This document shows positions 6,462-60,677 of a stretch of DNA of 64,000 nucleotides, in pieces. The notes beneath the pieces are model-generated. The model searched no databases, was not told the origin of the DNA, and was given only the letters and a program-made list of their open reading frames with translations. Made by a program: the position numbers and the translations under genes. Source of the stretch: Planctomycetota bacterium (GTDB lineage Bacteria > Planctomycetota > SZUA-567 > JAKLDR01); NCBI GenBank assembly GCA_022703445.1, contig JAKLDR010000012.1:1-64000 (forward strand), written 5' to 3'. The first letter of the stretch is position 1. Each line of letters opens with the position of its first letter.

Positions 6462-7688
6462 ATGCCCAAGACGATTGCCGAGATCAACGAACGCATCAAG
6501 TCGGGCAAGGCCGTGGTGGTCACCGCCGAGGAAATGGTGGCCATCGTCCGCAAGGACGGCCCGGCCGCGGCGGCGAAGAAGGTCGACGTGGTCACCACCG
6601 GGACCTTCGGCCCGATGTGCTCGTCGGGCGCCTACCTCAACTTCGGCCACCCTTCCCCGCGCATCAAGATGCAGAAGGTCTGGCTCAACGACGTGGAGGC
6701 CTACACGGGCCTGGCCGCGGTCGACGCCTACATCGGCGCCACCCAGCTCCGCGAAGGCGACCCGGAGAACTCGCGCTACCCGGGCGAGTTCCCCTACGGC
6801 GGCGGGCACGTCATCCACGACCTGGTGGCCGGCAAGGAGGTCCACCTCAAGGCCACCAGCTACGGCACCGACTGCTACCCGCGCAAGGAGGTCGCCACCT
6901 GGATCACGCTCGGGGAGCTCAACGAGGCGGTGCTCTTCAACCCGCGCAACTGCTACCAGAACTACAACGTGGCGGTCAACGCCTCGGACCGGCCGATCTA
7001 CACCTACCTGGGGCAGCTCCGGCCGAAGCTCGGCAGCGCCTACTACTGTTCGGCCGGGCAGCTCTCGCCGCTCCTGAAGGACCCGACCTATCGGACGCTG
7101 GGCATCGGCACGCGCATCTGGCTGGGCGGCGGCGTCGGCTACGTGGCCTGGCAGGGCACCCAGCACAACCCCGGCGTGCCCCGCGACGAGCACGGGGTGC
7201 CCAAGGTGCCGGCCGGAACGCTCACGGTGATCGGCGATCTCAAGCAGATGAAGCCCGAGTGGCTGGTCGGCGTGAGCCTGATGGGCTACGGCACGAGCCT
7301 GGCCGTGGGCATCGGCACGGCCATCCCGATCCTGGACGAGGGGCTGGCCCGCACCGCCGGCCTCTCCGACGAGGAGCTCTTCGCCCCGATCGTCGAGTAC
7401 AGCGACTGCTACCCGAACCTGAAGAAGTCGCCGGCCTGGGGCTCGGTCAGCTTCGCCCAGCTCAAGAAGGGACTCATCGAGATCGAGGGCAAGAAGGTCC
7501 CGACGGCGTCGCTCTCGAGCTACCCGAAGGCGGTGGCCATCGCCGAGGAACTCAAGGCCTGGGTGATGGCCGGGAAGTTCCTGCTGACCGAGCCGGTGGC
7601 CCCGCTGCCCGGCCCGGAGAGCGGCATCAAGTTCCAGCCGCTGAAGGTCCGCGAACGCCGCAACGACGACATCAAGCTGGCCAAGTAG
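6462..7688 (+). CDS. L-aspartate semialdehyde sulfurtransferase (DUF39, homocysteine synthesis)
   Basis: This 408-residue cytoplasmic protein belongs to the DUF39 family. Studied members (Methanosarcina MA1821) insert sulfide-derived sulfur into aspartate semialdehyde to form homocysteine, bypassing homoserine activation. The motif GTFGPMCSSGAY places a conserved cysteine at residue 53. A second cysteine, C138, sits in SYGTDCYPRKE. Both correspond to positions expected to carry catalytic sulfur in the family. GTRIWLGGGVGYVAWQGTQH (about 215-234) is another family block. The next gene, 14 bp downstream, encodes the usual partner with a NIL domain and two 4Fe-4S clusters, which confirms the assignment. 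A promoter lies directly upstream. The pair is most common in anaerobes. Confidence 0.9.
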   Translation: MPKTIAEINERIKSGKAVVVTAEEMVAIVRKDGPAAAAKKVDVVTTGTFGPMCSSGAYLNFGHPSPRIKMQKVWLNDVEAYTGLAAVDAYIGATQLREGDPENSRYPGEFPYGGGHVIHDLVAGKEVHLKATSYGTDCYPRKEVATWITLGELNEAVLFNPRNCYQNYNVAVNASDRPIYTYLGQLRPKLGSAYYCSAGQLSPLLKDPTYRTLGIGTRIWLGGGVGYVAWQGTQHNPGVPRDEHGVPKVPAGTLTVIGDLKQMKPEWLVGVSLMGYGTSLAVGIGTAIPILDEGLARTAGLSDEELFAPIVEYSDCYPNLKKSPAWGSVSFAQLKKGLIEIEGKKVPTASLSSYPKAVAIAEELKAWVMAGKFLLTEPVAPLPGPESGIKFQPLKVRERRNDDIKLAK

Positions 7689-15148: not shown

Positions 15149-16840
15149 CTACTTCAGCCAGTCGGCGAACGCCCCAGCTTTGATGGTTCCGGTGGCCTCG
15201 TCGATGGCCTCCACATTCTGCCCGGTCAGACTGTTCAGGGTGAGGGCCAGCATGCGGAGCAGCGCGGTCCGGGAGCCGATCTCCGGCGTGTTGCACTTGC
15301 GGGCCAGCTCCACCAGCTCCGGGACGAGCTTGCGGTCGCCCAGGACGCCGATGATCCGCACGGAGTCCGAAATCAGCCGCGCGTCGGAGTTGCTGGTCGC
15401 GTCGATCGCCGGTCCGGGCTTGAGCACCGGCGCCGCCTTCTTGAGGACCGCGAGCAGGTCGGCCGCCGCGACCCCGTCGCCGGCGCCCTCCATCATGATC
15501 AGGGTGTTGGCCAGCAGCACCTGGTTCGCGGCGTCGGCCAGGTTTCCGGCCGCGCGCTCGAGTTCGGCGCGCCGGGCGGCCAGCCAGTCCCTGCGCGGCT
15601 TGCCCCTGGACTTCTCCCACCAGGCCTTCCAGGCGGCGGTCAGTTTGTCGCCGGCCGCCTTGTCGAGCTCCTCCCGGTTGCCGGGGTCGGGCAGCATCCC
15701 GCCGCCCGCCGGGTACTGGCCGAGCGACATGCCGGCGATCACCGCCAGCGCCTGGCTGGCGCGCCCGCGCACCTGTCCGCCGCCGCCGTCCATCTCGATG
15801 CCGGCCGCGGGCAGCTCCGCCGCGTCGGCGAGCATGTCCAGGAGCAGCGGGACGACCGCGTGCAGTTCGTTGTCGGTGAGCCCGGCGAAGGCCTTCACCT
15901 GGCGGTGGGCGGCGACCAGGTTGGCGTCGCTCGGTTCGGTCCTGAGCGCCTGGAGCAGCTCCTTGGCCCTGGGCGTGAGCTCGGCGACGATGGGGGCGTC
16001 CGCGGCGGCGGCCGGGGGGCCGGCCTGCGCGGAAGAGGCCCCGACGGCCACGGCGGTGCCGATCCCGGCGGCCAGGACCGGCCCCAGGATCAGCGCCGCC
16101 AGCTTCAGCTTGGCCCAGAACATGGCCTTGAGGGCACCGTCGGCCAGGGCGATGGCCGACGCCGTGGTGGCCGTCGCGGCCGCCCCGCCGACCGCGGCCG
16201 TCACTCCGGAGATGAAGCCGGCGGGCAGCGCCGCCGCCGACTCTCCCGCGCGCGCGGCCAGCAGGGTCAGGAGCGCCCCGGCGGTCAACTCCCGCTCGCG
16301 GCCGGCGAGCCGCTCGCGGAGCCGCTCCAGGGCCCGCGCGCAGCGGTTGGCCACGGTGCTCTCCGGCAGCCTGAGACGCGCGGCCGCCTGGCTCTGGGAG
16401 AGTCCCTCGTAGTAGCACAGCACCAGCGCCTGGCGGTAGTGCTCGGGCAGGGCATCGAGGTGCGCGTCGATCCCGGCGGCGGCGTGGGGGCGAGTGCTGC
16501 GGTCTCCGGGCGAGGCGGCATCCGTGCGGCGCATGGGGGGAACCTCCTTTTCGTGGCGGGTGCGGGTGGCCCGGTCGCGCCGGGCGGTGCGGGCAACGAA
16601 CAGCGCCGAGCGGTGCAGCCACGCGCCCAGGTCGCCCTCTCCGGCGAGCGCCCCGGCCTTGCGGAAAAGAAGGATGAAGACCGCCTGGGCGGCGTCCTCG
16701 GCGTCCGGCCCCGCCCCCAGCAGCCCCCGGCAGGTCGCCAGGATCATCCCGGCGTGGCGCCGGAGGAGCTCATCGAAGGCCCCGGCCTCGCCGGCCAGGT
16801 GGGCCGAAAGCAGCTCGCGGTCCGTCAGCGTTGCGGGCAT
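15149..16840 (-). CDS. ECF-type sigma factor fused to a membrane helix and a C-terminal domain
   Basis: A 563-residue protein. Region sigma-2 occupies about residues 8-80 (LLRRHAGMILATCRGLLG, DAEDAAQAVFILLFRK) and sigma-4 about 130-180 (LPEHYRQALVLCYYEGLSQ and LRLPESTVANRC, the helix-turn-helix). A hydrophobic stretch near 240-275 probably crosses the membrane. The remaining 290 residues are an unknown, presumably extracytoplasmic domain. Membrane-tethered ECF sigma factors with large extra domains are characteristic of Planctomycetota. The fused domain may act as a built-in sensor or anti-sigma device. The protein shares its sigma-TM layout with the fusion at 52568. The start has GGAGGAAG upstream. 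An exported thioredoxin-like protein lies upstream on the same strand. Confidence 0.82.
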   Translation of the reverse strand: MPATLTDRELLSAHLAGEAGAFDELLRRHAGMILATCRGLLGAGPDAEDAAQAVFILLFRKAGALAGEGDLGAWLHRSALFVARTARRDRATRTRHEKEVPPMRRTDAASPGDRSTRPHAAAGIDAHLDALPEHYRQALVLCYYEGLSQSQAAARLRLPESTVANRCARALERLRERLAGRERELTAGALLTLLAARAGESAAALPAGFISGVTAAVGGAAATATTASAIALADGALKAMFWAKLKLAALILGPVLAAGIGTAVAVGASSAQAGPPAAAADAPIVAELTPRAKELLQALRTEPSDANLVAAHRQVKAFAGLTDNELHAVVPLLLDMLADAAELPAAGIEMDGGGGQVRGRASQALAVIAGMSLGQYPAGGGMLPDPGNREELDKAAGDKLTAAWKAWWEKSRGKPRRDWLAARRAELERAAGNLADAANQVLLANTLIMMEGAGDGVAAADLLAVLKKAAPVLKPGPAIDATSNSDARLISDSVRIIGVLGDRKLVPELVELARKCNTPEIGSRTALLRMLALTLNSLTGQNVEAIDEATGTIKAGAFADWLK

Positions 16841-49203: not shown

Positions 49204-49248
49204 ATCTCCATGAACAGCCAATGGCAAGATGTCAACAGGAGGTCGCCA

Positions 49249-50391
49249 ATGTCCATGACTGAACTTGAGCGCTTCGATGCCTGCATGGATTTCCGGACGG
49301 CCGATCGCCGGCCGAACCACGAACTGGGAGTGTGGGGCCAGACCCGCGAGCGCTGGCAGCAGGAGGCCCCGGACGCCGTGCGGGACTTCTCCTGGGACTG
49401 GTTCGTCGGCGAGCCGGCGCTGGGCCTGGACCACCGCGAGTACCTGGACGTGAACTACGGCTTCCTGCCGCCGTTCGAGCGTCGGATCATCGAGGACACT
49501 CCCGATTACGAGGTCGCCTGGAACGACAAGGGCATCCTGACCAAGGCTCTGAAGTTCGGCAGGGCCGGCGGCACGCGACTGTGCATGGACCAGTACCTGG
49601 AATTCCCGGTCGCCCGGCCCGAGGACTTTCCGGCGGTCAGGCGGCGGCTGGTCTCATCCGATCCACAGCGCCTGCCGCGGGATCTCGACGCCCGGGCGGC
49701 CAGCCGGGCGCAGCGCGACTGCCCGCTGTGCCTGGGCCGGAACTGCGCGGCCAACGGGTTCTACTGGCGCGCCCGGGAGTTCATGGGCACGGAGAACCTG
49801 TCGCTTGCCTGGTACGACCACCCGGCGCTGCTGCACGAGATGATGGAGTTCTACGCCAACTTCATCATCGAGACGAGCCGGCCGGTGCTCGAGAGGGTCC
49901 GGGTCGACTACTTCGTCCTCAACGAGGACATGGCCATGAAGGGCGGCCCGCTCCTGGGTCCCGACACGTTCCGCGAGTTCATCTTTCCGCACCTGCGCCG
50001 CCTGGTGGAGTTCCTCCACGGGCACGGCGTCAGGCACGTCGCGGTGGACTCCGACGGCGACCCGACCGTGCTCATCCCGCTGCTCCTGGACGCCGGCGTG
50101 GATACGGTCTGGCCCATCGAGCGGGCCTCGAACGTGAGTCCGGTCGAGTGGCGCCGGCGCTTCGGCCGCGCCCTGCGCCTCTGGGGCGGCGTGGACAAGC
50201 GCGAACTCTCCAGGGGCCCTGCGGCCGTGCGCGCCCACCTGCGCGAGTTCGTCCCGCTCATCGAGGAGGGCGGCTTCATACCAACGGTCGACCACACCGT
50301 GCCGCCGGACGTCTCCTGGGACGACTTCAGATACTACATGGACGCCAAGATGGCGCTCCTGTCGGGCGATTTCGGAAAGCTGGAGGACTGA
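49249..50391 (+). CDS. URO-D family protein 1
   Basis: A 380-residue cytoplasmic protein of the uroporphyrinogen-decarboxylase superfamily, a group that also holds corrinoid methyltransferases such as MtaA/CmuA. The opening MTELERFDACMDFRTADRRP and the late block HVAVDSDGDPTVLIPLLLDA are typical of the uncharacterised, catabolic-looking branch in PVC bacteria rather than of HemE. The ATG at 49249 has AGGAGG six bases upstream. An earlier ATG at 49210 coincides with the predicted transcription start and is unlikely. It forms an operon with a second URO-D gene 3 bp downstream, under an AraC regulator. No corrinoid protein gene is nearby, so methyl transfer is only a possibility. Confidence 0.82.
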   Translation: MSMTELERFDACMDFRTADRRPNHELGVWGQTRERWQQEAPDAVRDFSWDWFVGEPALGLDHREYLDVNYGFLPPFERRIIEDTPDYEVAWNDKGILTKALKFGRAGGTRLCMDQYLEFPVARPEDFPAVRRRLVSSDPQRLPRDLDARAASRAQRDCPLCLGRNCAANGFYWRAREFMGTENLSLAWYDHPALLHEMMEFYANFIIETSRPVLERVRVDYFVLNEDMAMKGGPLLGPDTFREFIFPHLRRLVEFLHGHGVRHVAVDSDGDPTVLIPLLLDAGVDTVWPIERASNVSPVEWRRRFGRALRLWGGVDKRELSRGPAAVRAHLREFVPLIEEGGFIPTVDHTVPPDVSWDDFRYYMDAKMALLSGDFGKLED

Positions 50392-50394
50392 GCC

Positions 50395-51480
50395 ATGCCC
50401 ATGACCGAGCTCGAACGCTACCAGGCCACCGTCAACCACCGCCGGCCGGACCGGCTGCTCTACCACCTGGGCTTCACGCCGGACCTGGAGAAGCGCGTGC
50501 GCCAGGCCGAGGGGCTGGATGAGAAGGCCAGTCTCGACGCCCACTTCGGCGCCTTCCGGCCGGTCTCGATGCGCCTGAAGGCCCCGGCCGACCGAGTCGA
50601 GCCCGACTGGTCGCGCTACTTCGAGGGCGTGGAACGCCCGGCGGGCTCCTACTTCGACGGCAACGGCTGCCTGCACGTGCCGGCCGGCGAGTTCCATTTC
50701 ACCCACTACATCTCGCCGCTGCGTAACGCGGCGTCGCTGGCCGACATCGAGAGCTACCCCTGGCCGGACTACCGCCGGTACGCGCGCGAGCACATCGCCG
50801 CCGAGGTCAAGCGGGCCCACGCGGAGGGCAAGGTGGCCCGGGTCTGCTGCACGCACATGTACGAGGATGCCTGGCAGGTCCGGGGCTACGAGCCCTTCCT
50901 GATGGACATGATCGCCGAGCCGGAGTGGGCCGGCTTCGTGCTCGACCGCTTCATGGAGCGCAACCTGCTCGCCGCGACCGCCGCCGCCGAGGCCGGCGCC
51001 GACGAACTCTACACCGGCGACGACGTCGCCAACCAGAACGCGCTGATGTTCTCGCCGGAGCACTGGCGGACCTTCATCAAGGCCCGCTGGGCCAGGGTCT
51101 ACGCCGCGGCCAAGGCCATCAAGCCCGACATCCGCGTCTGGTACCACTCCGACGGCAACATCACCGAGATCATCCCCGAGCTCCTGGAGATCGGGGTGGA
51201 CATCTTCAACCCGCTCCAGCCGGAGTGCGTGGACCTGGCCGCCATCAAGAAACGCTACGGGTCGCGCATGGTGATCGACGGGGCGGTCGGCACCCAGACG
51301 ACCATGCCCTTCGGCTCGCCCGCCGACGTCCGCGAGTGCGTCCGCGACCGGATCCGGGCGCTGGGCTCCGACGGCGCCCTGATCGTCTCGCCGACCCACG
51401 TGCTCGAGCCCGAGGTGCCGGTCGAGAACATCCGGGCGTTCGTCGAGGCGTGCCGGGGGTTCGGCGCGGCAGACAACTAG
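50395..51480 (+). CDS. URO-D family protein 2
   Basis: A 361-residue paralogue of the preceding gene, starting MPMTELERYQATVNHRRPDR and with the late motif YHSDGNITEIIPELLEIGVD followed by FNPLQPECVD. The His-x-Asp-Gly element matches the position of the metal-binding loop of MtaA-like methyltransferases, but the pattern of Cys ligands is not obvious. It is 3 bp from its partner and surely co-transcribed. HemE-specific residues for porphyrin decarboxylation are not evident, so I do not call it hemE. The pair may be subunits of one enzyme. Confidence 0.82.
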   Translation: MPMTELERYQATVNHRRPDRLLYHLGFTPDLEKRVRQAEGLDEKASLDAHFGAFRPVSMRLKAPADRVEPDWSRYFEGVERPAGSYFDGNGCLHVPAGEFHFTHYISPLRNAASLADIESYPWPDYRRYAREHIAAEVKRAHAEGKVARVCCTHMYEDAWQVRGYEPFLMDMIAEPEWAGFVLDRFMERNLLAATAAAEAGADELYTGDDVANQNALMFSPEHWRTFIKARWARVYAAAKAIKPDIRVWYHSDGNITEIIPELLEIGVDIFNPLQPECVDLAAIKKRYGSRMVIDGAVGTQTTMPFGSPADVRECVRDRIRALGSDGALIVSPTHVLEPEVPVENIRAFVEACRGFGAADN

Positions 51481-51576
51481 GACGGCAGGTTCGGACCCCG
51501 GGCTCTGTCCCGCGCGTTTTCGGGTTGAACTTCCCCGAGGCCCGTGCATACTGGTGCCGGACCTGGAGGGAACCGC

Positions 51577-52383
51577 TTGGCCGGCAAGTATCTGATCGGC
51601 TGCCAGCCCCACTACTACGCCCGTCCGCTGGTCTACGCCCTGGGCGTCGAGGGGCCGCGGCACCGGGTGGTCTTCGCCTCGGCCGCCGAGCTGGCCGCCG
51701 CCCTGATGGCCGACGACCTGGACGTCGCCCTGATCAGCTCCGTGGACTTCTTCCGGCATCCCGGCCTGGTGCTCCTGCCGGACATGTCCGTGTCCGCCCA
51801 GGGCCCGGCCGGCGCCGGGTTCCTGGCCGCCCGCACCGGGATCGGCAAGCTGCACCGCGTGGGCATAGACCCGCGCGAGCCGGCGCTGGCGGCGCTGGCC
51901 GCCATCTTCATGTTCGAGAACGCCGGGATGAAGCCGGAGTGGGTGGCCGCCGGGGCCGGCGAGGCCGCCGGGGACCGCACCCTGGACGGCTGGGTGATGC
52001 CGGCCGAGGTCCATCCGCCGGCCGCGCCTCCGGGCGGGGCGCTGTTCGACCTGGGCGAACTCTGGTGGCGCTTCGCCCGGCTGCCCTTCGTCTACGCGGT
52101 CTGGGCGGCCCGCGCCGGCGCCCGGCTCGACAACCTCGACAAGGACCTGCTGGCCGCCAAGCGCGAGGGCCTGCGGCGCATGGCCGAGGTCTGCGAGGTC
52201 GAGGCCCACCGCCTGGGCGTGTCCCAGGCCGAGTGCAGCGCAGCGCTCGGGCGCTTCCGCTACGACCTGAGCCGCGTCGAGCAGGGCGGGCTGCAGACCT
52301 TTCACAAGTACGCGGTCCGCGCCGGTCTGCTGCGCGCCGCGGCCCCCGGGGAGAGCGAAGCGCTGGCGATGTATCGGGGGTGA
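51577..52383 (+). CDS. mqnA: Chorismate dehydratase (futalosine pathway of menaquinone synthesis)
   Basis: A 268-residue protein of the MqnA/MqnD periplasmic-binding-like fold. MqnA removes water from chorismate to make 3-enolpyruvyl-benzoate, the first step of the futalosine route. Features are IGCQPHYYARPLVYAL at the start, the conserved DVALISSVDFFRHPG segment (about residues 48-62) and a helical C-terminus. The TTG start has GGAGGG six bases upstream. A likely promoter, TTGAAC-18-TACTGG, spans 51525-51554. Distinguishing MqnA from MqnD by eye relies on VALISSVDF near residue 50. Other mqn genes are absent from the window. Confidence 0.8.
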   Translation: MAGKYLIGCQPHYYARPLVYALGVEGPRHRVVFASAAELAAALMADDLDVALISSVDFFRHPGLVLLPDMSVSAQGPAGAGFLAARTGIGKLHRVGIDPREPALAALAAIFMFENAGMKPEWVAAGAGEAAGDRTLDGWVMPAEVHPPAAPPGGALFDLGELWWRFARLPFVYAVWAARAGARLDNLDKDLLAAKREGLRRMAEVCEVEAHRLGVSQAECSAALGRFRYDLSRVEQGGLQTFHKYAVRAGLLRAAAPGESEALAMYRG

Positions 52384-52567
52384 GGGAGGGCACACGCGAA
52401 GAGCCGCGTGCCTGCCACCAATCAAGACTTGACTCCGATCAGCAATAACGGTTGAACCACAGCCAGAACCATGACGTTGGGACATCAGGCGGTTCGATTT
52501 CTCCGGGAATTCCTCTTCGCCTCAGCCGGGCGGCGACGGTATGAGGGCGAGGGAGGGGACAGGGGCG

Positions 52568-55500
52568 ATGTCCAGCGAACCGGATGACCGTGAGTTGCTG
52601 GCCAGGTACGCGACGGAGGCGTCCGAGGACGCCTTCCGGACGCTGCTCGCACGCCATATGGCCATGGTCTACTCGGTCTGCTGCCGGGTGCTGGAAGACG
52701 CCCACCTGGCCGAGGACGCGGCACAGGCCACATTCGTGATCCTCTCCCGCAAGGCCCGAACGCTGGGGGAGGGGACCATGCTCGCCGACTGGCTCTACAG
52801 GACCGCACAGTACGTCGCCCGGGACCTCCGCCGGAGCACAGGGCGCGCCCGCAGGCGCGAGTTGGCCGCGGCGGCCGAGTCGGCCCGGGCAGCGCAGGGC
52901 GCCGGCACCCACGCCGGCGGCGCGAGCTTCGGTCCGTCGGAGCTCCGCCCGATCCTGGACGCCGCGCTGGTGACCCTGCCGGCAAGCTCCCGCCAGGCCC
53001 TGGTGCTGCACTATCTTGAGGGCCGTTCGCGCGAGGAAACCTCCCGGATCTTGGGCTGCTCGCTCGACGCTCTGAGGATGCGCATCGACTACGGCCTAGA
53101 GAAGCTCCGTGAGAAGCTCTCCCGGCGCGGCGTGAGCTTGTCGCTCGCGCTCCTGGGAGGCTGGCTGCTCGAATGCTCCACGGAGACGCTGCCGGCCAGC
53201 GCGGCCGCCGGGGCCGAGGCCGCGGCGCTCGGCTCGGGGGCGGCTGCCGCAGCACTGCCGGCGACCGGGATCGCAACCAGTGCGCTGCGCTCGATGTTCT
53301 GGAGCAAAGTCAGGCTGCTGGCTCTCTCGGCCGGGTCGGTCGCGGGCCTGCTGGTCCTGGTCTGGGCGCTCTCCTCGGCGATCGGAGGCCCCGAGCCGGC
53401 GGTGAGCGGCGCCTCCTTGCCGCCCCTGCCTTCACCGGCCCTGCCCGGCGCGGTGTCCGCCTCGGCCAGCGCCCGGGAGACCCAGGCCGGCGATCCCGCC
53501 GGCGACGTCACCCAGGGCGCCCTGCGCTTCAAGTCGGCCGAGGGCAAGTTCATTGAGTGCCCGCTCAAGCACACCGACGTCCAGGCGGAGATCGCCGGCT
53601 TCATCGCCCGGGTCACGGTGACCCAGGAGTTCGCCAATCCCTCCAAGGAGAAGATCGAGGCCGTCTACGTCTTCCCCCTGCCGCACGAGGCGGCGGTCGA
53701 CGGCATGACCATGGTCATCGGCCAGCGCCGGATCGTGGGGCTTATCCGGAAGCGCGATGAGGCCCGCAAGGTCTACGAGCAGGCCCTGGCCCGGGGGCAG
53801 ACCGCGGCGCTCCTGGAGCAGGAGCGTCCCAACGTCTTCGTCCAGTCGGTGGGCAACATCGAGCCCGGCCAACCGGTTAAGGTGGAGATCACCTACGTCG
53901 ACGTCCTGAGCTACGACCTGGGCGCCTACGCCTTCCACTTCCCGATGGTGGTCGGGCCGCGCTACAACCCGGCCAGCTGGTCGGAGGGCGTCGGCGCGGC
54001 GCCGGCCGACGCGGCCGGAGCGTCGGGCCAGAAGACCGAGGTCCCGTACCTGAAGCCCGGCAAGCGCAACGGCCACGACATCGCGCTCTCGCTCCGGCTC
54101 GACGCCGGCGTGCCGGTCCGTGACCTCAAGTCGGTCAACCACAAGGTGCACATTGAACAGACCGGCGCGCGCACCGCGACCTGCGCCATCGAGGCGTCCG
54201 ACGCCATTCCCAACAAGGACTTCGAGCTCAGGTACAAGGTGATGGGCGAGAAGCCCGAGGTTGCGGTGCTGGCCCACGCCGGCTCTGAGGGCGACGGACA
54301 CTTCCTGCTGATGGTCCAGCCCAAGGAGGACGCCGCGGCGCTGGCGGCGCCTCCGCGCGAGTTGGTCTTCCTGGTGGACGTCTCCGGCTCGATGTCCGGT
54401 GAACCCACGGCGAAGGTCAAGCAGACCATGAAGCTCCTGCTGGCGGGGCTGGGTCCCAGGGACAAGTTCCAGGTGGTCACTTTTGAGAGCCAGGCCGAGA
54501 AACTCTTCCCAGCGCCGGTCGTGTGCAGCGAGGACAACGTCCGGAAGGCGCTGGCCTTCTCGCAGAACGCGGCCGCCGGTGGCGGCACAGAGATGCTCCA
54601 GGGCATCCGGGCGGCCCTGGGCGATCCGCCCGATCCCGAGCGGGTGCGCATCGTGATCATGCTCACCGACGGCTTCATCGGCAACGAGGCCGAGATCGTC
54701 CAGGAGGTCGGCCGGCGCTGCGGCGACCGGCTGCGCTTCTGGTGCATCGGCATCGGCAACTCGGTGAACCGCTTCCTGGTCGACGGCGTCGCCAAGCACG
54801 GCGGCGGCATGGGCAAGGTGCTGAGCCTGAGGAGCACCGAGGCCGAGGTCAAGGACCTGGTTGCCGAGGTCGTGATCAGGCTGCACCGCGCCCAGATCGC
54901 GAACCTGGCCGTCAACTGGGGTGGCCTGCAGGTGCGGGACACCTACCCGGCGAGGATTCCCGAGCTGTGGGCCGGCAGGCCGGCAGTGATCTTCGGACGC
55001 TACTCCGGCGGCGGCGCGGCGCGGATCCGCCTGAGCGGCGAGGCCGAAGGCCGGGCGGTCTCCTTCGAGGTCCCGGTGGAACTCCCCGCCAAGGACTCGG
55101 GCAACGACGCCCTGGCCGTGACCTGGGCGCGCCGGAAGATCGAGAGCCTCACCGACGAGATGGCCGTCGAGGGCGAGAACGCGAAGCGCGTCGAGGAGAT
55201 CACCCAGCTGGCCCTCGACTACCGGCTGATGACCCGCTACACCAGCTTCGTCGCCGTCGACGAGCAGAAGCTCAGGGTCGCGGGGGTGGACCTCACCGCG
55301 CCGCGCAAGATCGGCGTGGCGGTGCAGCTGCCGGAGGGGGTGAGCGAGTGGGCCATACCCGCCAACGACGGGGGCTTCGTCTACTCGCCCAAGGAAGGGG
55401 AGGCGACCGCCCCGGCCGCAGGACCGGAATCCTACGGCCACGGCCAGTGGGGATGGAAACAGACCTCCTTCAGCATAGGCACGCCGGGACTCGTGGTGAT

Positions 55501-55843
55501 CATGCTCGCCCTGGCGATTCTGATCTACTTCCTGGCCGGCCTGAGGCGCGGGCGTTTCGTATACGTACCGCTCTCCCTGGGTCTCTTCGCCTTGGCCTTC
55601 GGAATGCTCGGCACGGTGATCAGCATTCGCAACGTCTGCGAGGTCATTGGCGGAATGGCCGGCCCCGTCGATCTGGCCCTCTTCGCCGATGGCGTATCCA
55701 GGGCGCTGGTCTCCACATTCACGGGGCTCGTCGTGGCCATCGGCGGCAGCTTCTTCACCCTGATCCTCCACGCCCGAGACAAGCACCTCGACCGCCTGGC
55801 GGCCGAGGAGGACTCCGCCGACGGGGACGGCCGCGATGAGTAG
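52568..55843 (+). CDS. ECF sigma factor - VIT - VWA - ExbB/TolQ-like channel fusion
   Basis: A 1091-residue protein combining five parts. Sigma-2 is at about 18-90 (DAFRTLLARHMAMVYSVCCR, AEDAAQATFVILSRK) and sigma-4 at about 128-185 (LPASSRQALVLHYLEGRSR). A membrane helix lies near 250-271. A VIT domain spans about 317-460 (VTQEFANPSKEKIEAVYVFPL). A VWA domain (about 598-770) has the metal-binding motif DVSGSMS at 604-610. The C-terminus (about 966-1075) has three helices with the MotA/TolQ/ExbB pattern FGMLGTVISI...ADGVSRALVSTFTGLVVAI. The ATG at 52568 follows GGGAGGGG. The sigma part would be cytoplasmic, the VIT-VWA part outside. A paralogue of the last domain follows 13 bp downstream. Confidence 0.82.
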   Translation: MSSEPDDRELLARYATEASEDAFRTLLARHMAMVYSVCCRVLEDAHLAEDAAQATFVILSRKARTLGEGTMLADWLYRTAQYVARDLRRSTGRARRRELAAAAESARAAQGAGTHAGGASFGPSELRPILDAALVTLPASSRQALVLHYLEGRSREETSRILGCSLDALRMRIDYGLEKLREKLSRRGVSLSLALLGGWLLECSTETLPASAAAGAEAAALGSGAAAAALPATGIATSALRSMFWSKVRLLALSAGSVAGLLVLVWALSSAIGGPEPAVSGASLPPLPSPALPGAVSASASARETQAGDPAGDVTQGALRFKSAEGKFIECPLKHTDVQAEIAGFIARVTVTQEFANPSKEKIEAVYVFPLPHEAAVDGMTMVIGQRRIVGLIRKRDEARKVYEQALARGQTAALLEQERPNVFVQSVGNIEPGQPVKVEITYVDVLSYDLGAYAFHFPMVVGPRYNPASWSEGVGAAPADAAGASGQKTEVPYLKPGKRNGHDIALSLRLDAGVPVRDLKSVNHKVHIEQTGARTATCAIEASDAIPNKDFELRYKVMGEKPEVAVLAHAGSEGDGHFLLMVQPKEDAAALAAPPRELVFLVDVSGSMSGEPTAKVKQTMKLLLAGLGPRDKFQVVTFESQAEKLFPAPVVCSEDNVRKALAFSQNAAAGGGTEMLQGIRAALGDPPDPERVRIVIMLTDGFIGNEAEIVQEVGRRCGDRLRFWCIGIGNSVNRFLVDGVAKHGGGMGKVLSLRSTEAEVKDLVAEVVIRLHRAQIANLAVNWGGLQVRDTYPARIPELWAGRPAVIFGRYSGGGAARIRLSGEAEGRAVSFEVPVELPAKDSGNDALAVTWARRKIESLTDEMAVEGENAKRVEEITQLALDYRLMTRYTSFVAVDEQKLRVAGVDLTAPRKIGVAVQLPEGVSEWAIPANDGGFVYSPKEGEATAPAAGPESYGHGQWGWKQTSFSIGTPGLVVIMLALAILIYFLAGLRRGRFVYVPLSLGLFALAFGMLGTVISIRNVCEVIGGMAGPVDLALFADGVSRALVSTFTGLVVAIGGSFFTLILHARDKHLDRLAAEEDSADGDGRDE

Positions 55844-55856
55844 GGAGGGGCTCAGC

Positions 55857-56408
55857 ATGAGACGGAGAATCGTCCTTCTGATCCTGGCGGCCGGCGTGGC
55901 CCTAGGCGTCGCTGCACCGGCCGAGGAGGCCCCGGCCGCCGCAGTGCCAACTCCGCCACCGGCACCGGCTGCAGTCAGAGCGGAAGCGGGGCCGGAGACA
56001 GGCGCAAGGGCGCCGTGGCGCTACGGGCACACTTCTTCGAACATCGGCCTCGCGAACATTGTGGGCGCTGGCCTAGCGCTGGCGATCCTGGCCGTCTTCC
56101 TCGCCGGCTGGAAGCGCGGGCGCTTCGTATCTGCGCCACTGATCCTGGGGCTCTTCGCTCTGGGCGTCGGATTCCTGGGGATGGTGATCGGCCTGATTGA
56201 CCTATTCACGGCAGTCGCCAGTTCGGGCGGAGTCGACTCGGTCGACTTCGCCGAAGGTCTGTCCAAAGCGATGGTCGGTGCGCTCATCGGCTTGGTCGTG
56301 GTCATTTGCGGCGGGCTCCTCACCTGGATCCTCCACGCTCGAGATAGGCATCTCGACCGACTGGCGGCCGAGACAGCGGAGGACGAGGAGCAAGAGGTCT
56401 GCACCTGA
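55857..56408 (+). CDS. Stand-alone ExbB/TolQ-like membrane protein
   Basis: A 183-residue protein with a signal-like N-terminus (MRRRIVLLILAAGVALGVAAPA), a Pro/Ala-rich segment, then three membrane helices closely similar to the end of the previous gene. It shares KRGRFVSAPLILGLFALGVG, FAEGLSKAMVGALIGLVVVI and the terminal LHARDRHLDRLAAE. The pattern is that of the MotA/TolQ/ExbB proton-channel family. The ATG at 55857 has GGAGGGG six bases upstream. It starts 13 bp after the sigma-VIT-VWA fusion, so the two are one operon and probably assemble together as channel subunits. No ExbD/TolR-like partner is found downstream. Confidence 0.78.
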   Translation: MRRRIVLLILAAGVALGVAAPAEEAPAAAVPTPPPAPAAVRAEAGPETGARAPWRYGHTSSNIGLANIVGAGLALAILAVFLAGWKRGRFVSAPLILGLFALGVGFLGMVIGLIDLFTAVASSGGVDSVDFAEGLSKAMVGALIGLVVVICGGLLTWILHARDRHLDRLAAETAEDEEQEVCT

Positions 56409-56678: not shown

Positions 56679-57272
56679 ATCGGCGACAAGCCCGTTGAAC
56701 TCGTCAAGATCGAGAACCAGCGCCTGCGCGAGCGCGTGACCGCCCTCGAGCAGGAGCTGGCCGATGCCCGCAGGGTCGGGGCCGCCTCCCCCCAGCAGGC
56801 CCGCCTCATGGAGCTGCTCCGTCAGAAGAACCAGCAGCTGGAGAGCAGCGCCCAGGAGCTCGAGCAGAAGGCCAAGGACTCCGAGAAGGCCGCCAAGGAC
56901 CTGGCCGCCAAGAACGAAGAGCTCACCAACAGCATGGCCGCCCTGCGCCTCTACCAGCTCATGTTCGAGAACGACCCCCACGGCCTGGTCGGCGTGGCCC
57001 CCGACGGCACCATCATCCAGTTCAACAGCTCGGCCATCCGCTTCTTCGGCTACGACCTGCACAAGCTGAGGCTCCAGTCCATCACGCGGCTCAAGCTGCC
57101 GGGAACGTCGGTGGACATCGAGGCGGTCTTCGCCGAGGCCATGAAGAACGGCGAGGCCAACCCGGTGGACTGCGTCCAGGAGGACCGCAAGGTGCGGGTG
57201 GGCTGCTTCCGCCTGGAGGACATCCGCGGCCAGCGCGGCGCGGTCTTCCGGCTGTCCGAAGTTCGCGAATGA
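56679..57272 (+). CDS. Coiled-coil PAS-domain protein with an ATC start codon
   Basis: A 197-residue cytoplasmic protein. Residues 1-90 are a long coiled coil (VELVKIENQRLRERVTALEQ..., then ESSAQELEQKAKDSEKAAKD). A PAS domain follows (about 98-195: LMFENDPHGLVGVAPDGTII, then FNSSAIRFFGYDLHKL). No output domain is present, so it probably works through a partner. An ideal AGGAGG sits 7 bases upstream of an ATC that begins MGDKPVELVK if read as Met. The next in-frame start (GTG at 56736) has no ribosome site and would cut the coiled coil. A consensus promoter is directly upstream. A DUF58/BatA-like pair follows on the same strand. Confidence 0.75.
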   Translation: MGDKPVELVKIENQRLRERVTALEQELADARRVGAASPQQARLMELLRQKNQQLESSAQELEQKAKDSEKAAKDLAAKNEELTNSMAALRLYQLMFENDPHGLVGVAPDGTIIQFNSSAIRFFGYDLHKLRLQSITRLKLPGTSVDIEAVFAEAMKNGEANPVDCVQEDRKVRVGCFRLEDIRGQRGAVFRLSEVRE

Positions 57273-57361
57273 ATGCAGAAGGAAGAATGATGAATGATGA
57301 ATGAGGCAGGAGGAGACGCCGAGTTTCGGCGCATCATCCTGTTTCTGCATTCATCATTCGT
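57266..57361. repeat. Inverted 'aatgatga' phrase repeat
   Basis: Arm 57266-57305 (GAATGCAGAAGGAAGAATGA...) and arm 57332-57361 (CATCATCCTGTTTCTGCATT...) are inverted copies with a loop of about 26 nt. The stop codon of the PAS gene lies in the left arm. The tract is markedly AT-richer than its surroundings. Confidence 0.8.
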
Positions 57362-57378
57362 AGTTCCCAACTAGCCCC

Positions 57379-58296
57379 GTGCCCAAGTACCAATACCTCG
57401 ACCCCAAGGCCCTGGCCAGGATCGGCAAGGTCAACCTCGTCGCCCGCGGGGTGGTCGAGGGCTTCGTCTCGGGCCTGCACAAGAGCCCCTACCACGGCTT
57501 CTCGGTGGAGTTCGCCGAGCACCGCGAGTACACGCCGGGCGACCCCCTGAAGCGCATCGACTGGCGGGCCTTCAGCCGCACCGACCGGCTCTTCGTCAAG
57601 CTCTTCGAGGACGAGACCAACGTCCGCTGCTACCTGCTGCTGGACCGCTCTGGCTCCATGGCCTACCGCCACCCCAAGAGCCCGATGAGCAAGATCGAGT
57701 ACGGCTGCTACCTGACCGCCTGCCTGGCCTACCTGATGATCCGCCAGCAGGACTCGGTGGGCCTGGTGACCTTCGCCCGGGGCAAGTCCGGCTTCATCGC
57801 CCCGAGGAGCACGCCCTCGCACCTGCGCGTCCTGCTCGAGGAGCTGGAGAAGCTCCGCGCCGGCGGCGGCTCCGACCTAGCCCGGACCTTCCACGACCTG
57901 GCCGAGAACATCGGCCGGCGGAGCGTGATCGTCATCCTCTCCGACCTGCTCGACGACCAGAAGGAGGTCCTCAAAGCCCTCCATCACTTCCGGCACCGCA
58001 AGCACGAGGTCATCCTCTTCCACCTGCTGGACCACGCCGAGATCGGGTTCCCCTTCAGCCAGCTGGCCGACTTCGTGGACATGGAGACCGGCGAGCGCAT
58101 CCAGATCGACCCGCGCTACGTACGCGAGGAGTACCAGCGCGAGTTCGAGGAGTTCTGCGCCGGCTTCCGGCGCGAGACCGCCCAGACCCTGGTCGAGTAC
58201 GTCCGGGTGGACACCTCGCGGCCCTTCGAACTGATGCTGGCCGAGTACCTCGCCCGCCGCCAGAAGCTGGCGGCGGCGGCGCGGTCGAGCGGGTAG
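57379..58296 (+). CDS. DUF58 / VWA-like protein
   Basis: A 305-residue protein of the DUF58 family. The family motif HGFSVEFAEHREYTPGDPLK (about 35-54), then RIDWRAFSRTDRLFVKLFED, is clear. A VWA-like fold follows with LLLDRSGSMAYR (about 91-102) as its metal site. DUF58 proteins usually sit with a MoxR AAA ATPase and BatA/BatB VWA membrane proteins and are thought to help mature or assemble other complexes. Here the BatA-like gene follows, but no MoxR is in the window. A GTG start is used and lacks an obvious ribosome site, since a repeat hairpin fills the leader. Confidence 0.87.
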   Translation: MPKYQYLDPKALARIGKVNLVARGVVEGFVSGLHKSPYHGFSVEFAEHREYTPGDPLKRIDWRAFSRTDRLFVKLFEDETNVRCYLLLDRSGSMAYRHPKSPMSKIEYGCYLTACLAYLMIRQQDSVGLVTFARGKSGFIAPRSTPSHLRVLLEELEKLRAGGGSDLARTFHDLAENIGRRSVIVILSDLLDDQKEVLKALHHFRHRKHEVILFHLLDHAEIGFPFSQLADFVDMETGERIQIDPRYVREEYQREFEEFCAGFRRETAQTLVEYVRVDTSRPFELMLAEYLARRQKLAAAARSSG

Positions 58297-58300
58297 GCAG

Positions 58301-58416
58301 CTTAACCGCAGAGGACGCAGAGGAGCGCAGAGGGTGGAATGGGCAGGTTGGCTGGAGCCGGCACCACAGATTCAGTTGAGTGCCCTCTGCGTTACTCTGC
58401 GTCCTCTGCGGTGAAA
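58301..58416. repeat. Inverted 'cgcagagg' phrase repeat
   Basis: Arm 58301-58334 (ACCGCAGAGGACGCAGAGGA...) and arm 58383-58416 (CCCTCTGCGTTACTCTGCGT...) are inverted copies, with a loop of about 48 nt. It fills the gap between the DUF58 and BatA-like genes and shares its word with the elements at 36388-36622 and 43480-43505. Confidence 0.85.
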
Positions 58417-58430
58417 GCCCTGGGCTGACC

Positions 58431-60677
58431 ATGTTCGCCAACGCCCTCATCCTCCTCGCCGCCGGCGGCGCCGCCCTGCCCATCATCCTGCACCTCATCT
58501 ACCGCAAGCGCGCCCAGGAGGTGCCCTTCAGCTCGCTGCGGTTCCTCAAGACCTCCATGAAGCGCACCGCCCACCGCAAGCGCCTCCAGGAACTGCTGCT
58601 CCTGGCCATCCGGGTGGGGCTGATCCTGGGGCTGGTGCTGGCCCTGGCCAAGCCGATCCTCGGAGCGGCGCGGATCCTGGGCGGAAGCTCGCACTCGAGC
58701 GTCGTGCTGGTCCTCGACGACTCCGGAAGCATGTCCTGCGAGCACAACGGCGAGAGCCGCTTCAAGCGCGCCAAGGCCGCCGCCGACAAGGTGCTGCGCG
58801 GCCTGGTGCAGGGCGACTGCGTCTCGCTGCGGCTGGCCTGCCGGCCGGTCTCGCCGGTGGTCGGGGAGATCACCGCCGATCGCGCCGCGGTGGCCGACGC
58901 CTTCACCCGGGCCGACTGCACCGCCGCGCGCGGCGACCTGGCCGGTCAGGTCGCCAGGGCCGTCGCCGACCTGGGCGGGCGCTCCGACGCGGACCTGGAG
59001 CTCTTCGTCCTCTCGGACCTGCAGCGCACGGCGCTGTCCACCCTCCCGGCGCGGCTGGGCTCGGCGCTGGCCCTGGCCGAAGCCCCGGCTGCCGACGGCG
59101 CGGCGCCCAGGGACCGGACCAGGAACCGCCTCATCTCCGTGGTGGTGGTCGACGTCTCCGACCCGGACTTCGCCAACGCCGCCGCGACCGACCTGGCGGT
59201 GCGCTCGCGGGCCCGGACGGCCGGCGAGCAGGTGACCATCCAGGCCCAGGTGCGCAACACGTCATCCAAGACGGTCGGCCCGCGGGCCACCCTGCGCGTC
59301 GATGGCCAGGAGGTGGACACCGAGCCGCTGGAGATCGAGGCCGGGACCACGACCACGGCCAGCTTCCCCTGCCAGATGGCCACCGCCGGCGCGCACTGGG
59401 GGTCGGTGGAGCTCTCCCCCGACTCGATGGCCTTCGACAACCGGCGGTTCTTCCACACCGAGCTCTTCCGGCGAGTGCCGGTGCTGGTCGTGGAGGCGGC
59501 CGCGCCGGGGGCGCGCCCTGCCGGGCCCCTGCCCGGCTCCTTCTACCTGCTGGCCGCGCTCGATCCGTTCGGCGCGGGCGGGGAGGGCAGGGGGCTGATC
59601 GAGCCCAAGCTCGTCGCCCCCGAGGCGGTGAATGCCGCGATGCTCTCCGGCTGCGGCGCGGTGATCCTCTCGGGCCTCGACCGGATCCCGCCGGCCCTGG
59701 GCCTGGCCCTGCGCGAACACGTGGCCGCGGGCGGCGGGCTGATCGTCTTCCCGGGAGCGAACGCCGACGGGCCGGGCTACGAGGCCGTCTTCGGCGACTC
59801 GGGGGACGGCCGCGGCCGGCTGCTCCCGGCCCGGCTCGGCGCGGCGCTCCCGGCTCCGCAGCCCAGGGCCGGCGAGGAGCCCGAGGGATTGTCCGTGGCC
59901 GGCTGGGAGCAGAGCCACCCGGTGCTGCTGCCCTTCAAGGGCCTGACCCGCACGGCGGCCTTCGGGGGCGTGCGGGTCTTCGCCGGCCGCGCGCTCGACA
60001 TCCCCGAGAAGTCCGGCGCGCAGGAACTGGTCACCCTGAAGGACGCCGTCCCCTGGCTGGCCGCCGGTTCCTACGGGCGCGGGCGGGTCTACCTCTTCGG
60101 CTCCCCGGCGGACGCAGCATCCTCGACGCTGCCCATCCAGAAGGTCTTCCTGCCGCTCCTGCACGGCATGGTCTACGACCTGGCCGAGATCCGCGAGCGC
60201 CGCTCCGAGTACCTGGTGGGCGGCACGGCGGCTCTGGCCTTCCCGGAGGCCAAGGGGCCGCTGGCCGTGCGGGTGACCTCGCCGGACGGCAAGGTCTTCG
60301 AGGGCAGGGCCGAGGGGCCCGGGGGGGCGTTCAGCTTCGGCCCGCTCGACGAGCTCGGGGTCTACAGCTACAAGGCCTCGCCGGGCGACCGCGAGGGCAG
60401 CTTCGTGGTCAACCCCGATCCGGAGGAGTCGGACCTCGAGCCGACGACCCGCGCCGAGCTCGAGAAGGCCTTCGCCGGCTTCCGGAACGTGATCTTCTGC
60501 CAGGGCGCCGATGGCCTCGAGCGCGCGGTGGCCCGCATCCGCGAGGGGCGGGACCTCTCCGGGCTGATCCTCGGCCTGGTGCTGGCCCTGGCCGTATTCG
60601 AGTGCTTCTTCGCGAACTGGCTGATGCCGGGGGCGGCGAAGGGCGATGGAGGGGCCGAACGGCCAGCCGCCGATTGA
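58431..60677 (+). CDS. BatA-like membrane VWA protein
   Basis: A 748-residue membrane protein. The N-terminus has the BatA domain: helix 1 (about 1-18), PIILHLIYRKRAQEVPFSSL, a cytoplasmic basic loop and helix 2 (about 57-75). A VWA domain follows with VLDDSGSMS (about 93-101). Further on are an immunoglobulin-like region (about 260-340), a class-I-amidotransferase-like fold common in this family (GCGAVILSGLDRIPPALGLAL), and a last membrane helix near 720-735. It pairs with the DUF58 protein upstream. Such proteins are thought to act in envelope stress or aerotolerance. The ATG at 58431 lies 15 bp after a repeat hairpin, with only a weak ribosome site. Confidence 0.85.
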   Translation: MFANALILLAAGGAALPIILHLIYRKRAQEVPFSSLRFLKTSMKRTAHRKRLQELLLLAIRVGLILGLVLALAKPILGAARILGGSSHSSVVLVLDDSGSMSCEHNGESRFKRAKAAADKVLRGLVQGDCVSLRLACRPVSPVVGEITADRAAVADAFTRADCTAARGDLAGQVARAVADLGGRSDADLELFVLSDLQRTALSTLPARLGSALALAEAPAADGAAPRDRTRNRLISVVVVDVSDPDFANAAATDLAVRSRARTAGEQVTIQAQVRNTSSKTVGPRATLRVDGQEVDTEPLEIEAGTTTTASFPCQMATAGAHWGSVELSPDSMAFDNRRFFHTELFRRVPVLVVEAAAPGARPAGPLPGSFYLLAALDPFGAGGEGRGLIEPKLVAPEAVNAAMLSGCGAVILSGLDRIPPALGLALREHVAAGGGLIVFPGANADGPGYEAVFGDSGDGRGRLLPARLGAALPAPQPRAGEEPEGLSVAGWEQSHPVLLPFKGLTRTAAFGGVRVFAGRALDIPEKSGAQELVTLKDAVPWLAAGSYGRGRVYLFGSPADAASSTLPIQKVFLPLLHGMVYDLAEIRERRSEYLVGGTAALAFPEAKGPLAVRVTSPDGKVFEGRAEGPGGAFSFGPLDELGVYSYKASPGDREGSFVVNPDPEESDLEPTTRAELEKAFAGFRNVIFCQGADGLERAVARIREGRDLSGLILGLVLALAVFECFFANWLMPGAAKGDGGAERPAAD

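Follow-up and report, generated by a model that had tools for sequence, protein, structure and literature searches.

In a stretch of 64,000 nucleotides from the Planctomycetota contig JAKLDR010000012.1 (assembly GCA_022703445.1; hereafter the window), a single uninterrupted open reading frame (ORF) on the plus strand (52541/52568-55843) joins an extracytoplasmic function (ECF) sigma factor, a transmembrane (TM) helix, a VIT domain, a VWA domain and a MotA/TolQ/ExbB-like core. A small gene directly downstream (55857-56408) encodes a second copy of this core. The reading we favor, with about even confidence, is that of a membrane-tethered ECF sigma factor whose VIT-VWA sensor would be anchored at both ends and whose ExbB-like core would serve to anchor and oligomerise rather than to conduct protons.

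Architecture of the fused gene and its partner

The fused gene contains two in-frame ATGs, at 52541 and 52568, yielding proteins of 1100 and 1091 amino acids, respectively. The better Shine-Dalgarno-like sequence is found at 52568; residue numbers throughout are counted from 52541. Pfam matches of both window proteins were judged against gathering cut-offs. Above cut-off were sigma-70 region 2 (PF04542, Sigma70_r2; residues 36-102, positions 52646-52846, E=1.7e-9) and region 4 (PF08281/PF04545, Sigma70_r4_2/r4; residues 138-191, 52952-53113, E ~3e-8), the two regions characteristic of ECF sigma factors, and the protein scored 62.1 against a cut-off of 42.9 for NCBIfam sigma70-ECF. A juxtamembrane MFWSKV motif and a single TM helix follow (residues 252-277, 53294-53371), with the helix itself predicted by hydropathy at residues 259-277. 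Next come the VIT domain (PF08487, residues 342-452, 53564-53896, E=9e-40) and the VWA domain (PF13768 VWA_3, residues 607-757, 54359-54811, E=1e-24), both above cut-off. The metal-ion-dependent adhesion site (MIDAS) of the VWA domain has intact residues, i.e. DVSGS at 613 (DxSxS), T683 and D710. Three C-terminal TM helices were predicted by hydropathy at residues 983-1001, 1011-1029 and 1057-1075. The first (TM1, 55487-55543), also a helix in predicted models, is predicted to run from outside to inside, while TM2 and TM3 make up the MotA_ExbB core (PF01618, residues 1013-1080, 55577-55780, E=1e-9), with a score of 38.6 against a gathering score of 22.9. The ORF, Pfam and hydropathy results uphold the original prediction, made from the bare sequence, that a sigma module, a membrane helix, VIT-VWA and a three-helix MotA/TolQ/ExbB segment reside in one polypeptide.

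No Pfam match to zf-HC2, which would indicate an anti-sigma or zinc-binding anti-sigma (ZAS) domain, was obtained for the fusion even with E as high as 1. The fusion scored 472.6 for TIGR03788 (marine sortase target), below the cut-off of 551.65. The full-length predicted model had a predicted local distance difference test score (pLDDT) of 67, mostly 85-98 in VIT and VWA and low in the linkers and sigma part. It matched ITIH1 across VIT-VWA and left the relative placement of the membrane parts unfixed.

The partner gene (plus strand, 183 amino acids from ATG 55857) starts 13 bp past the stop of the fusion and is preceded by GGAGGGG. Its product consists of a signal-peptide-like N-terminal helix, an Ala/Pro linker and three TM helices by hydropathy, with a MotA_ExbB core (PF01618, 56154-56342, E=4.6e-6) scoring 26.8 against the same gathering score. 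The fusion tail and partner core share ~50% identity over ~140 amino acids, including the ending LHARD(K/R)HLDRLAAE. The gene spacing, repeated segment and shared ending had all been described correctly; the description of the partner as the channel segment alone had to be amended, since it also carries the signal-peptide-like helix and Ala/Pro-rich linker.

The source assembly is fragmented (314 contigs, 81% complete, 4% contamination), and a join produced by assembly or binning error was considered for this reason. Such an error is very improbable, given that the three domain types lie in one open frame with consistently high G+C content at third codon positions (0.84-0.94), the two cores adjoin each other and are close homologues, and the 76 kb contig holds another gene of the same tethered sigma family (described below).

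The ExbB-like core and proton conduction

The homology of the C-terminal helices to ExbB/TolQ, which the MotA_ExbB profile match already indicated, is real as judged from several sequence and structure comparisons. A PDB search with a profile of the two window copies returned TolQ and ExbB as best matches (E 0.0013 to 0.005), with MotA lower. A model built from other ExbB-type proteins of the phylum matched both copies at 1.5e-12 and 7.8e-12, values that apply to a small set. An AlphaFold model of the fusion tail, built from the two window sequences only and of limited weight, gave three helices (pLDDT 63); the top 18 Foldseek matches to it were all ExbB/TolQ chains (probability 0.69-1.00, E 0.04-1.1, none at E 0.001). 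Chance resemblance was therefore rejected by Pfam, the PDB profile search and Foldseek. Identity as the defence component ZorA of Zorya was also considered, and PADLOC gave no match.

The core has three TM helices in an N-out/C-in arrangement, as in MotA/TolQ/ExbB, according to hydropathy, a positive-inside reading and the helices in the models. Positive residues are present before the first TM helix of the fusion (KVR) and between TM1 and TM2 of the cores (RRGR/KRGR), which would place the sigma part and tail inside and VIT-VWA outside, the same topology as ExbB.

The original prediction suggested a possible device in which an extracytoplasmic signal or an ion gradient controls the release or activity of a tethered sigma factor. 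In the channel form of this idea, the two cores would function as a TolQ/ExbB-type channel for protons or other ions, and the flux would move or free the sigma part. The proton path of TolQ includes T145 and T178, and that of ExbB T148 and T181 (PMC12965293); the fusion retains threonine at both positions (T1025 and T1059), which favors conduction, while the partner has lost both (Met and Ala). Five ExbD family matches elsewhere in the genome (contigs C52, C244, C270 and C245), two of them adjacent on C244, are likewise compatible with a channel, but no ExbD, TolR or MotB gene lies alongside the pair on the window's contig. The two adjacent ExbD genes span 6664-7577 of G000 contig C244, on which no MotA_ExbB Pfam match was found. 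Furthermore, the joint between TM1 and TM2 is only ~9 residues long, and the large cytoplasmic domain of ExbB/TolQ is missing. A TM3 Glu present in 45 of 48 ExbB-type proteins of the phylum is replaced by R1054 in the fusion and K144 in the partner, and the window copies have lost both conserved Pro residues, one at the TM2 start and one in TM3; this census, whose selection motif demanded GTV together with Thr/Ser in TM3, is informative for Glu and Pro and not for Thr. A proton-channel role is poorly supported and unlikely because of the missing adjoining ExbD, the missing loop, the change of Glu to Arg/Lys and the absence of both Thr from the partner, and flux control of the sigma factor is accordingly rated improbable.

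Relatives of the parts, origin and proposed mechanism

The sigma end belongs to a lineage-expanded family. The genome encodes 20 other proteins in which a sigma factor, a juxtamembrane MFWxK motif and one TM helix precede differing outside domains (here termed sigma-TM-X), and the fusion has the same layout of sigma, linker with MFWxK, single TM helix and outside domain. Across the paralogues the motif reads MFWxK(V/I/M)K. Their outside parts, read by eye, include kelch-like, hydrolase-like, zinc-ribbon and FG-GAP-like sequences; two sigma-HEAT proteins are also present. None of these proteins carries VIT, VWA or an ExbB-like tail. The nearest sigma paralogue within the genome is 48% identical over residues 15-263. 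A second sigma-TM-X gene is located in the window on the minus strand (15149-16840).

A paralogue on contig C146, without sigma factor and tail, shares 64% identity with the VIT-VWA part. In genome G057 the gene immediately following an ECF sigma gene encodes a VIT-VWA protein that begins with a zf-HC2 anti-sigma domain. A zf-HC2 domain likewise precedes VIT-VWA in G044. These arrangements suggest that VIT-VWA already serves ECF signalling. By domain content, VIT-VWA in these relatives forms the outward-facing portion of anti-sigma proteins; in the window it is carried by the predicted sigma factor itself. Fusions of zf-HC2 with VIT-VWA were located at L046:3416-9539 and L049:5282-8848, the former directly following an ECF sigma gene.

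Conservation was surveyed in ~390 genomes of the phylum, 28 other genomes of the class and the 80 closest named VIT-VWA loci. Among the best 80 named loci, from many phyla, none had VIT-VWA fused to a sigma factor or ExbB-like core, and in many planctomycete-type loci an ECF sigma factor was encoded separately, by an upstream gene of like orientation. Searches of the phylum for sigma-TM-VIT (best 4 candidates per genome scored) and for the ExbB-like tail recovered the joined form only in the window. The pair of fusion and partner, surveyed as the original prediction had suggested (up to 7 candidates per genome scored in one of the surveys), did not turn up in any other genome examined and is thus not a conserved device. 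Sigma-VIT-VWA fusions, presented there as known from Planctomycetes-Verrucomicrobia-Chlamydiae (PVC) bacteria, were not encountered in these surveys: the sigma-TM-X family is real but bears other cargos. The open-access papers searched likewise yielded no sigma-VIT or sigma-ExbB fusion.

Two further stand-alone ExbB-like copies with signal-peptide-like starts occur in the genome, on C80 and C178, with 32-34% identity to the fusion tail. Across the class, 28 further genomes yielded no full-length relative of this four-member family. The two stand-alone ExbB-like three-TM proteins, at L091:6720-7268 and L092:152-703 (minus strand), are more degenerate. Also encoded on L092, and elsewhere on the L091 contig, are proteins that combine LRTWRPM with a TM helix and in some cases contain HEAT repeats.

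The likeness of the two window cores extends into the outside linker ahead of TM1, as expected if a leaderless copy was fused. The core of the fusion probably arose from a copy of the neighbouring gene that lost its signal sequence and was joined to the end of the larger gene. In the simplest history, a gene for a small membrane protein would have been duplicated in tandem, and the upstream copy, without its leader, would then have fused in frame to the sigma-VIT-VWA gene. Such a fusion could also have been accidental, the tail being a degenerate, neutral anchor, the protein working like any other sigma-TM-X member and the second gene having an unrelated role. Occurrence in one genome, erosion of conserved ExbB residues, the two stand-alone degenerate copies and the 20 paralogues that manage without a tail are all consistent with this explanation, which we regard as possible but somewhat unlikely: the Pfam match remains above cut-off, the fused copy keeps both Thr, the reading frame is intact and dN/dS (the ratio of nonsynonymous to synonymous substitution rates) between the two cores is ~0.5, pointing to moderate constraint.

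In the double-anchored, tethered sigma factor that we favor, the sigma region would lie in the cytoplasm, connected by one TM helix to an outside-facing VIT-VWA binding module, as homology and hydropathy suggest. A minimal three-helix core of the TolQ/ExbB type would then take the chain back into the membrane. The sigma part would be held at the membrane, and VIT-VWA would bind or sense something outside. Association of the two proteins through their ExbB-like cores may hold VIT-VWA at both ends within an oligomer in which the core serves as anchor rather than as proton channel. Binding to VIT-VWA, or strain on it, could alter how the sigma part is held, which may then be freed by cleavage at the TM helix or, by a change of shape, be allowed to engage RNA polymerase. 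Both modes of activation, proteolytic and conformational, are proposals. The proteolytic one has precedent in IutY and ECF48/52/53, tethered sigma factors for which activation by proteolysis is established or anticipated, with IutY as the tested case (PMC8999054). Peptidase_M50 genes are present in the genome and were counted for the cleavage model. Two of them are near sigma-TM-X genes, one after trpS and housekeeping-like, and this adjacency was not used as support. A more elaborate scheme, to which we assign little probability, has the sigma factor built into an ExbB-type oligomer of Thr-pair fusion and Thr-less partner, so that a ligand bound, or membrane energisation sensed, between the two anchors would directly set sigma activity.

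Several points weigh against the double-anchored tether. The combination is known from only one genome, and conservation of the whole is therefore unsupported. Confidence in the models of the C-terminal region is low (the domain modelled by itself has pLDDT 63), the dN/dS estimate is indicative of moderate constraint only, and we infer tethering, cleavage, oligomer formation and the interaction of the two proteins.

Upstream of the fused gene, TCTCCGGGAATTCC (52500-52513, plus strand, 68 nt before the start codon) comes close, with one mismatch, to a TTTCC(N)GGAA element that is enriched ahead of sigma-TM-X genes in this genome (e.g. L218, L219, L222, L223 and L225). TTTCC was present in 12 of 22 sigma-TM-X upstream regions (-100 to -31) compared to 5 of 87 control intergenic upstreams (Fisher 8e-7); the 5-mer was picked after the data had been seen, and the value becomes ~8e-4 once corrected for 1024 5-mers. 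Two of the five TTTCC-bearing controls were ECF sigma genes themselves. The enrichment suggests a shared promoter or autoregulation. A dyad promoter search gave nothing above shuffles. Neighbouring genes include two tandem URO-D-family genes (49210-51480) and a menaquinone biosynthesis gene (VitK2_biosynth, 51544-52383) upstream, and a DUF58-BatA type cluster directly downstream (56736-60677), with a PAS-domain gene followed by DUF58 and BatA/VWA genes.

Comparison with known systems

The fusion links three module types, i.e. ECF sigma, VIT-VWA and TolQ/ExbB core, that elsewhere reside in separate genes. The window cores have the TM2-TM3 sequence motif and topology of TolQ, ExbB and MotA, and the fused copy has the Thr pair; they differ in lacking the large cytoplasmic loop and an adjoining ExbD, in the change of Glu to Arg/Lys and, for the fusion, in being placed behind an outside domain. 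If the core truly contributes, this would be an ExbB scaffold used outside energy transduction. VIT followed by a MIDAS-bearing VWA is also the arrangement of the heavy chains of ITIH and of TIGR03788 proteins, which, unlike the fusion, normally have no joined sigma factor or ExbB core. Judging from the zf-HC2-VIT-VWA relatives, VIT-VWA may be a sensor module in ECF signalling that has received little attention.

Planctomycetes ECF sigma factors that end in WD40 or other domains (ECF57 and relatives; PMC8999054, PMC8567305) are likewise lineage-expanded paralogues of a sigma factor plus extension, but no VIT-VWA or ExbB-type extension is described for them in the literature searched. The membrane-tethered ECF sigma factors that bear C-terminal extensions (IutY/ECF243, ECF48, ECF52 and ECF53; PMC8999054) also have a sigma factor, a TM helix and an outside domain within a single chain, and proteolytic activation has been proposed for them. 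These carry fused anti-sigma/ZAS or carbohydrate-binding domains, whereas the window fusion, in which no ZAS domain was found, carries VIT-VWA and a second membrane domain. The fusion illustrates how a tethered sigma family can, by gene fusion, acquire new sensors on the outside as well as another anchor in the membrane.

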